From Sulfurimonas indica (GTDB lineage: Bacteria; Campylobacterota; Campylobacteria; Campylobacterales; Sulfurimonadaceae), in NCBI RefSeq assembly GCF_009192995.1, contig NZ_SDID01000007.1, positions 62,001-126,000 of the forward strand: a stretch of 64,000 nt of DNA, given 5' to 3'. Below the pieces are notes generated by a model. The model was not told the DNA's origin. It saw nothing but the letters and a program-made list of their open reading frames with translations, and ran no database searches. Both the position numbers and the translations under genes were made by a program. Below, in pieces: positions 18,175 to 24,405 of the stretch. Position 1 is the first letter of the stretch. Each line of letters begins with the position of its first letter.

Positions 18175-18285
18175 AGTTTTCCTTAGATGAAATAAATTAA
18201 ATTTATCTATTTTATCCAATAAATGCTTTAAAATACGTTATTTTCGGCAAGAAGCTTTAAGCTTGGAAAAAACTTCCTTTTGTGA

Positions 18286-18291
18286 TATAAT
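18286..18291 (+). promoter_or_regulatory. -10 box (TATAAT) ahead of riboswitch leader
   Basis: A perfect TATAAT lies 11 nt before the predicted riboswitch. A transcript starting near 18298 would carry the whole aptamer and a leader of about 176 nt before the small secreted protein gene. The remaining spacer towards gatB (18175-18280) holds only A/T-rich sequence. Confidence 0.65.
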
Positions 18292-18301
18292 TATCACATT
18301 G

Positions 18302-18396
18302 ATAAATATAAGAAAAAGCCAACCTTACTGTGAAGTAAGCACGGAAAGTTATGGGTCTTTTATCCAAAAGATCGCCAGACTGCCAAATGTATTTAT
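18302..18396 (+). promoter_or_regulatory. Cyclic di-GMP-I (GEMM-I) riboswitch aptamer
   Basis: The segment has the layout of the GEMM-I aptamer. GCCAACC (18318-18324, consensus GCAAACC) leads into a 6-bp stem CUUACU/AGUAAG capped by a GNRA loop (GUGA). Next come ACGGAAAG (consensus ACGCAAAG), GUUAUGGGUCUUUU with its partner AAAAGAUCGCC (the tetraloop-receptor arm, loop AUCC), then AGACUGCC (consensus GGGUUGCC). The consensus pairing GCC:GGU is replaced here by GUU:GAC, a compensatory change that supports the fold. A closing helix can form between AUAAAUA (18302-18308) and UAUUUAU (18390-18396). Differences are the G for C in ACGGAAAG and an A-rich asymmetric loop below the core. Confidence 0.78.
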
Positions 18397-18410
18397 ATTC
18401 TACATTTTTT
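18385..18410 (+). terminator. Weak intrinsic terminator overlapping aptamer P1
   Basis: AAATGTA (18385-18391) pairs with TACATTT (18401-18407), followed by a run of T. The 5' arm shares bases 18390-18391, and the loop shares 18392-18396, with the strand that closes the riboswitch aptamer, so the two folds exclude each other. This predicts a transcriptional ON switch when ligand stabilises the aptamer. The stem has only two G-C pairs, so its strength is uncertain. Confidence 0.5.
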
Positions 18411-18434
18411 CTATATCTATCATAATTTCACTGT

Positions 18435-18458
18435 AATCAAATATTTGCTTATTTGATT
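18435..18458 (+). promoter_or_regulatory. 9-bp perfect hairpin just upstream of the ribosome-binding site
   Basis: AATCAAATA (18435-18443) and TATTTGATT (18450-18458) form a perfect stem with a 6-nt loop, 5 nt before the ggag site (18464-18467). It could modulate translation or mRNA stability of the riboswitch-controlled gene; no U-tract follows, so it is not a terminator. Confidence 0.5.
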
Positions 18459-18473
18459 GTTATGGAGAAAATT

Positions 18474-18743
18474 ATGAAAACTCTAATCTCAGCAATTTTG
18501 CTTCTGTTTTTATCTACATCGTTATTTTCGGCAGATAATTATAAATTTGATATTTATAATGTTGATGCATACAACAGATCTATTCCTGCCATTTCTCTGG
18601 CTATTACACCAAAAAACAGTAGCGGATTCCAATTTATACTCTCATATGTAAGTACACTCTTTAGCTTTGAAAAGCCGGTTCAAGAGTATACACTTAATGA
18701 TAAGTACACAAATGTGCAAATGAGTCTCAATTTTAGATTTTAA
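18474..18743 (+). CDS. Small secreted protein under predicted c-di-GMP riboswitch
   Basis: I do not recognise the family. The 89-aa product starts at ATG 18474 (ggag site 6 nt upstream), has a clear signal peptide with cleavage expected near LFSA/DNYKF (residue 20), and a mature part of about 69 residues rich in aromatic and polar residues. It ends NVQMSLNFRF: alternating strand-like sequence with a terminal Phe, as seen in small outer-membrane or surface proteins. An in-frame extension to 18453 lacks a ribosome-binding site. It is monocistronic, and its only visible control is the riboswitch leader. A role in surface attachment or matrix is suggested by that control but is not shown. Confidence 0.65.
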   Translation: MKTLISAILLLFLSTSLFSADNYKFDIYNVDAYNRSIPAISLAITPKNSSGFQFILSYVSTLFSFEKPVQEYTLNDKYTNVQMSLNFRF

Positions 18744-20395: not shown

Positions 20396-20398
20396 GCC

Positions 20399-20420
20399 AA
20401 ACGAGGAGAACTCCTCGTTT
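20399..20420. terminator. Bidirectional hairpin terminator
   Basis: AAACGAGGA (20399-20407) and TCCTCGTTT (20412-20420) form a perfect 9-bp G/C-containing stem with a GAAC loop between convergent genes; it is followed by attttg on the + strand and overlaps the rny stop codon. Confidence 0.8.
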
Positions 20421-21987
20421 ATTTTGCAAACTCTACTGCTCTGCTCTCCCGAATTACATTTACTTTAATTTCACCCGGGTATTGAACTTTTTGTTCTATC
20501 TCTTTTGCTATCTCTTTAGCCATTAAAACCGACTCATCATCATTGACAAGTGTTGCATTGACAAAGACGCGTACCTCACGTCCTGCATTGATGGCATAGG
20601 CCTGACGAACACCGACATGTGCAGAAGCGATATCTTCAATTTCTGTAACACGTTTTAAGAAGCTCTCTAGCACCTCACGGCGTGCTCCCGGACGTGCCGC
20701 AGAGAGAGCATCTGCTGCACACACTGCACCACACTCAACTGAGTGAATCTCTTGCTGTCCATGGTGCGCATAGATTGCATTAATGACGACTTCATCTTCA
20801 TTGTAGCGACGGCATATCTCTGCACCCAAATCTACATGATTTCCATCGACATCATGGGTAAGTGCCTTACCAATATCATGCAGAAGTCCCGCACGTTTTG
20901 CCAAAATCGGATCACCGCCCATTTCAGCAGCCATAATACCAGCCAAGTGAGCCACTTCAAGTGTATGTGCCAGTGCGTTTTGTCCATAAGAAGCACGATA
21001 ACGCAGACGACCAATGAGCTTCATAAGTTCTGGATGCATCACTCCGATATTTAGCTCTGCAACTAGCTCTTCACCCTCTGAGAGAATCTTTGACTCAAAC
21101 TCATCTGAGACCTTCTTAAATATCTCCTCAATACGGGCCGGCTGAATTCTTCCATCTTCTATAAGCAGTTGCAGTGTTTTTGTCGCTATTGCACGACGAT
21201 AGAGATTAAAACTACTCACAAGAATTGCATTTGGCGTATCATCGATGATAATATCAACACCTAAAAGTGTCTCAAGCGCTTTGATATTGCGCCCCTCTTT
21301 ACCGATGATACGACCTTTTAACTCATCATTGTCAAGGTGCACTAAGTTTGTCAGTCTCTCTGCTGCAAACTCTCCTGCATAACGGCTTGTTGCCTGAGCT
21401 AATATGTAGTTTGCTTTTCTCTCAGCCTGCTCTTTTGCCTCATTTTCATAACGTCGTACGATATGTGCTATCTCCGCACGTGATTTCTCTTCTATCGTAT
21501 CAAGCAGCATCTTTTTTGCTTCATCTTGCGTCATTCCTGCACAATGCTCTACTGCATGGAGTGCTTCGTCTATCTTTTGTTCATATTTTTTTTTCAGTGA
21601 AGCAAGGGACTTTTCATTTCTCTCTAAATTTATTTTTTGGGCTTTTAGAGCTTTGAGTTCTAACTGAATCTTTTTTTCTTCATCTTGTTTATAACGCAAA
21701 AAGCTCTGCTCTTTTCGAATCAGCTCATCTTCTCTTTGATGCAGATCCGCTTTTGCTCTGGCTTTTGCAGTGTCAAACTCTTTCTTTGCCTCAAGCTCTA
21801 TCTCACGAGACTTCAGATGTGCACGCTCCAGTAGCGTTTGTGCCTCATTCTCGATCGCTTTTGCTTTTGCCTGAGCCTGTTCAACATAAATGTCAAAATT
21901 AGCACCCGTAATTTTTTTAGAGATGAAAAAGCCTACTACTCCACTGACAGTGGCAATGCCACCGCCTAGTAGTATCTCATTTAACAT
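20419..21987 (-). CDS. rny: Ribonuclease Y
   Basis: RNase Y is a membrane-anchored endoribonuclease that initiates mRNA decay. The 522-aa protein has an N-terminal membrane helix (about residues 5-24), a long charged coiled coil (about 28-170), a KH domain with GKEGRNIKALE (about 220-232) and an HD domain with the metal motif HDIGKALTHDVDG (about 368-380), then the C-terminal RNase Y domain. Length and order are standard. Its stop lies inside the terminator stem shared with the haem protein gene. The 5-formyl-THF cyclo-ligase gene is 3 bp upstream, so the two are one operon. Confidence 0.96.
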   Translation of the reverse strand: MLNEILLGGGIATVSGVVGFFISKKITGANFDIYVEQAQAKAKAIENEAQTLLERAHLKSREIELEAKKEFDTAKARAKADLHQREDELIRKEQSFLRYKQDEEKKIQLELKALKAQKINLERNEKSLASLKKKYEQKIDEALHAVEHCAGMTQDEAKKMLLDTIEEKSRAEIAHIVRRYENEAKEQAERKANYILAQATSRYAGEFAAERLTNLVHLDNDELKGRIIGKEGRNIKALETLLGVDIIIDDTPNAILVSSFNLYRRAIATKTLQLLIEDGRIQPARIEEIFKKVSDEFESKILSEGEELVAELNIGVMHPELMKLIGRLRYRASYGQNALAHTLEVAHLAGIMAAEMGGDPILAKRAGLLHDIGKALTHDVDGNHVDLGAEICRRYNEDEVVINAIYAHHGQQEIHSVECGAVCAADALSAARPGARREVLESFLKRVTEIEDIASAHVGVRQAYAINAGREVRVFVNATLVNDDESVLMAKEIAKEIEQKVQYPGEIKVNVIRESRAVEFAK

Positions 21988-24383: not shown

Positions 24384-24405
24384 ATGAGGAGTTCGCGCTC
24401 CTCAT
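24384..24405 (+). terminator. Strong 8-bp hairpin after the toxin-like gene
   Basis: ATGAGGAG (24384-24391) and CTCCTCAT (24398-24405) form a perfect stem with a TTCGCG loop, 7 nt after the stop codon. No T-run follows at once, so it may be a 3' stabilising or regulatory hairpin: its CTCCT arm could instead sequester the AGGAG at 24307-24311. Confidence 0.55.

Follow-up and report, generated by a model that had tools for sequence, protein, structure and literature searches.

The 5' untranslated region of a gene for a small exported protein of Sulfurimonas contains a c-di-GMP-I (GEMM-I) aptamer. Its ligand contacts are canonical and it is linked to the small gene. Our preferred reading, to which we assign a probability of about one in two, is a canonical c-di-GMP-I riboswitch that acts at translation, with a slight and uncertain lean towards OFF.

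Identity of the aptamer and its surroundings

The window, that is the whole stretch of 64,000 nucleotides (64 kb) analysed, was compared with all Rfam families by cmscan. RF01051 (c-di-GMP-I/GEMM-I) gave the only match above cut-off, on the forward strand at 18308-18387, with 60.5 bits (gathering score 35 bits) and E = 2.4e-9. The alignment spanned the full model (1-87), with standard pairs at all consensus pairs. A single GEMM-I copy was found in the 2.09-Mb genome. An earlier note on this DNA had listed GEMM-I core elements and proposed a check by covariance model. Indeed, all these elements are present and the score, obtained on the whole window, lies well above threshold; the GUU:GAC pairing that it described is present too. 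The same note remarked that ACGGAAAG differs from the usual sequence. The departure is not an oddity, since a paired change compensates it: C21:G46 replaces G21:C46 (GCC...CGG vs GGC...GCC). The swapped pair is common to the relatives examined, except for single changes at one of its positions in two of them (L010 and L018), and is seen in many Proteobacteria. An exact-pattern scan on CGGAAAG matched Methylomonas, Thiomicrorhabdus, Desulfobacterota and others. Within P3, the consensus CUAA...AuG bases of the tetraloop-receptor region are deleted. The tetraloop of the GNRA hairpin is GUGA. P1 is interrupted beside the core, with AAG opposite CAA. Altogether, the aptamer is a genuine, ordinary member of GEMM-I.

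The aptamer sits upstream of an open reading frame and is accompanied by a promoter-like site (Table 1). In most relatives, a TATAAT-like -10 element is found upstream of the leader at a similar distance. The span singled out previously, 18286-18473, agrees with these landmarks, beginning at the -10 box and ending one base before the ATG.

Table 1. Position of the features in the window (all on the + strand) and basis of each assignment.
Feature	Position	Strand	Basis or remark
Promoter-like TTGGAA, 17 nt, TATAAT (-10 at 18286-18291)	18263..18291	+	10/12 consensus positions
5' leader GATAAATATAAGAAAAAG	18301..18318	+	can pair with either 18388-18396 (P1) or strip 18405-18421
Best P1 closing helix, AUAAAUAUA (18302-18310) with UGUAUUUAU (18388-18396)	18302..18396	+	folding
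c-di-GMP-I (GEMM-I) aptamer	18308..18387	+	cmscan, alignment; G20 = 18318, A47 = 18345, C92 = 18383
CTTACT-GTGA-AGTAAG hairpin, GNRA tetraloop	18324..18339	+	model alignment
P3 stem, AGTT/GACT and TGGGTC/GATCGCCA	18347..18381	+	model alignment
Weak AAATGTA/TACATTT hairpin and T run (terminator of the earlier note)	18385..18410	+	-2.5 kcal/mol
Conserved pyrimidine strip TTTTTTCTATATCTATCATAATTT	18405..18428	+	three possible partners: leader (B), Shine-Dalgarno (S), start codon (Z)
Hairpin GTAATCAAATA/TATTTGATTGT between strip and ribosome-binding site	18433..18460	+	z = -3.3, p = 0.004
Ribosome-binding site and start, ATGGAGAAAATTATGA; GGAG 18464-18467, ATG 18474-18476	18462..18477	+	sequence
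Open reading frame of the 89-aa exported protein	18474..18743	+	signal peptide, hydrophobic alternation, C-terminal ...SLNFRF

The small exported protein and its linkage to the switch

The regulated gene proposed earlier, coding for an 89-aa exported protein, was confirmed as an open reading frame with a signal peptide. The protein matched no Pfam family above cut-off, and its structure was poorly predicted (mean pLDDT 54). Its C-terminus (NFRF/NYKF-like) resembles outer-membrane beta-signals, and judging from these sequence features it is probably an envelope protein. A search of 228 genomes from the family detected relatives in 26, and every convincing match belonged to the genus. These proteins measure 84-100 aa and evolve fast, identity decreasing to 16%. 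One of them (L191, genome G538) carries an in-frame duplication of about 30 residues. Homology to a 129-aa exported protein located behind GEMM-I in L006 and L019 was also considered and rejected (hhalign probability 2.6%).

Twenty genomes have an intact small-protein gene, and GEMM-I lies in front of it in 19 of them; the locus of G017 is divided between two contigs, so that its join was inferred from identical sequence. The remaining genome, G535, has the intact gene without the switch. Three others show decay: a decayed aptamer ahead of a gene with two stops (G003), a deletion that fuses fragments of aptamer and gene (G010), and a remnant of the gene from which the aptamer is gone (G575). 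The switch and the small-protein gene are retained or lost together.

Control at translation or at termination

Downstream of the aptamer, a strip made up of UUUUCUUUAUCUAUCA and a subsequent UAAUUU or AAAUUU is nearly invariant in 20 relatives. So is the leader GAUAAAUA, in relatives whose small proteins are as little as 16% identical; its part GATAAATA is invariant in the 20 syntenic relatives. The strip was examined for pairing with three partners, in the true register and with the strip slid along it. Pairing with the leader was found in 96% of cells (slid, at most 83%), with the Shine-Dalgarno in 90% (at most 82%) and with the start codon in 92% (at most 63%). Compensatory changes were detected in the latter two. 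One pair of the Shine-Dalgarno pairing goes from UA to UG to CG, and the start-codon helix, where such changes are clearest, shows double changes at two of its pairs (L022/L184 and L188). The leader-strip helix shows no covariation, both of its strands being nearly invariant. Duplex energies of strip and Shine-Dalgarno gave no clear gain over shuffled strips in most sequences, and complementarity comes cheap because the sequence is AT-rich. Most relatives also form a hairpin between the strip and the Shine-Dalgarno, with differing sequences. Taken together, the conserved pairings of the strip and this hairpin therefore favour control at translation.

A switch of this kind could work as follows. 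Binding of c-di-GMP would close P1 between the leader and its downstream strand. Without ligand, the leader would instead pair with the pyrimidine strip. In the bound RNA, the strip would be freed and could reach the Shine-Dalgarno to pair with it, or the start codon could be held by CAUAAUUU, which adjoins the strip. Access of the ribosome would thereby fall at high c-di-GMP, making this a translational switch.

The direction of the switch was assessed by folding, the bound model having the core forced and the leader-strip pairing penalised. For 19 of 20 sequences, the bound model made the ribosome-binding site costlier to open (8.4 kcal/mol on average, vs 4.6), with no difference in L186. 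With a shuffled strip the difference was 2.3 kcal/mol, compared to 3.9 for the real one, so much of the effect is procedural. The start-codon helix is compatible with both the bound and the ligand-free state. Within the translational model, we give OFF at high c-di-GMP only a small edge over ON, approximately 55:45.

The opposite direction, translational ON, would have the bound RNA free the ribosome-binding site, since the ligand-free leader-strip helix would stack on the start-codon helix and stabilise it. These two helices do coexist in the ligand-free minimum-energy folds of several relatives, and it is the start-codon helix that carries the clearest compensatory changes. However, the opening cost was computed to be higher in the bound model in nearly all sequences, albeit with a modest excess over the control. 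We regard this direction as rather doubtful.

Transcriptional control, which the earlier note had predicted in the form of an ON switch, appears somewhat less likely still. The ligand-free AAAUGUA/UACAUUU hairpin and U run would terminate transcription, and the ligand-stabilised P1 would take UGUA of the 5' arm, so that transcription continues. The pieces of this arrangement exist: inverted-repeat arms (18385-18391 and 18401-18407) and a T run (18405-18410), overlapping the 3' strand of the best P1 (18388-18396). An equivalent arrangement is present in about ten relatives, the hairpin having seven pairs in 9 of the 20 syntenic ones and five pairs in one more. Moreover, a relative of GEMM-I, the Geobacter pilM switch, is an ON switch acting through a terminator (PMC9262584). 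However, the hairpin in the window is very weak, with a single G-C pair and -2.5 kcal/mol on folding, and it was not recognised by the terminator scan. The remaining syntenic relatives, about half of the 20, have C-rich or unrelated sequence in its place and yet keep the rest of the platform. Terminator-like hairpins taken as yardsticks elsewhere on the same contig are stronger, with 8-10 pairs and GC-containing stems. Two such hairpins, with T-rich tails, lie in the window at 20398-20421 (10 pairs) and 24384-24405 (8 pairs). An intrinsic-terminator platform was rejected on the grounds of its weakness and its absence from half of the relatives. Of the earlier proposal, the inverted repeat and its overlap with the closing helix are borne out; the terminator and the ON switch built on it are not supported. 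The evidence speaks more for a translational platform, whose folding model tilts weakly towards OFF.

Finally, it is most improbable that the aptamer is an inactive relic: the pair of switch and gene can be dispensed with, as its decay in three relatives shows, but the aptamer scores 60.5 bits with standard pairs throughout and all ligand contacts kept, and the platform is conserved in 20 relatives.

Distribution, ligand and comparison with known switches

The host had been placed in the Campylobacterota, which is borne out by its genus, Sulfurimonas. GEMM-I had been called familiar from Clostridia, Vibrio and delta-proteobacteria. Campylobacterota are not an unusual host either, the family being widespread there: 43 of 397 Campylobacterota genomes had a match (42 above cut-off), spread over 13 of 68 genera, and one genus of the same order (g60) carries as many as ten copies per genome. 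Tandem pairs of GEMM-I aptamers were observed in this genus (G269:C1:356375-356583 and G434:C1:96505-96724). Other genes lie behind GEMM-I elsewhere. L009, L012 and L015 precede lipoproteins with a CxxCH motif, whose first 260 residues have no Pfam match (L009 scanned); at the chromosomal place of the small-protein gene, adjoining gatB, L015 has this different gene. L007, L010, L013 and L018 precede a conserved protein of >450 aa, for which a scan of the first 260 residues in L007 gave no Pfam match either. L023 and L029 precede proteins that begin with a domain for nitrate/nitrite sensing (NIT), as scanned in L023.

The genome (about 2.1 Mb) contains 41 GGDEF and about 25 EAL domain matches, and no PilZ match was found in the whole of it. 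Nor was a c-di-GMP-II riboswitch matched in the genome, by a search that was also without match in control genomes. The literature searched yielded no paper dealing with c-di-GMP riboswitches of Sulfurimonas or Sulfurovum. The switch would tie c-di-GMP to a small orphan protein, probably of the envelope, in Sulfurimonas, and could give access at the RNA level to c-di-GMP signalling in this group. A broader picture is speculative and, taken as a whole, unlikely: one strip would choose among three partners, namely the mRNA 5' end, the Shine-Dalgarno and the start codon. The translational switch built on it would be among the few direct readouts of c-di-GMP in a genome rich in GGDEF and with no detected PilZ, and would be devoted to a small outer-membrane-like protein that evolves fast.

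In the Vc2 structure, the bases meeting the ligand are G20, A47 and C92 (Vc2 numbering), and all three are canonical in the window (Table 1). c-di-GMP is therefore the predicted ligand, and a preference for cGAMP is not predicted because G20 is kept. The cGAMP-selective GEMM-Ib switches of Geobacter share the aptamer architecture but carry A at position 20, where the window has G (18318); membership of this class was rejected on that basis. The position equivalent to G20 is a selectivity factor between cyclic dinucleotides (PMC9262584). Membership of c-di-GMP-I-GGC (RF03167) was likewise rejected, at 56.4 bits for a cut-off of 59. The overall fold is the same, but at position 47 the window has A (18345) where that family's consensus has G; three relatives exceed this cut-off. 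The closest likeness is to the RF01051 switches Vc2 of Vibrio and Cd1 of Clostridioides, and extends to the whole aptamer, the GNRA hairpin and the three ligand contacts, whereas the window differs from them by its C21:G46 pair, the deleted receptor region and the interrupted P1.
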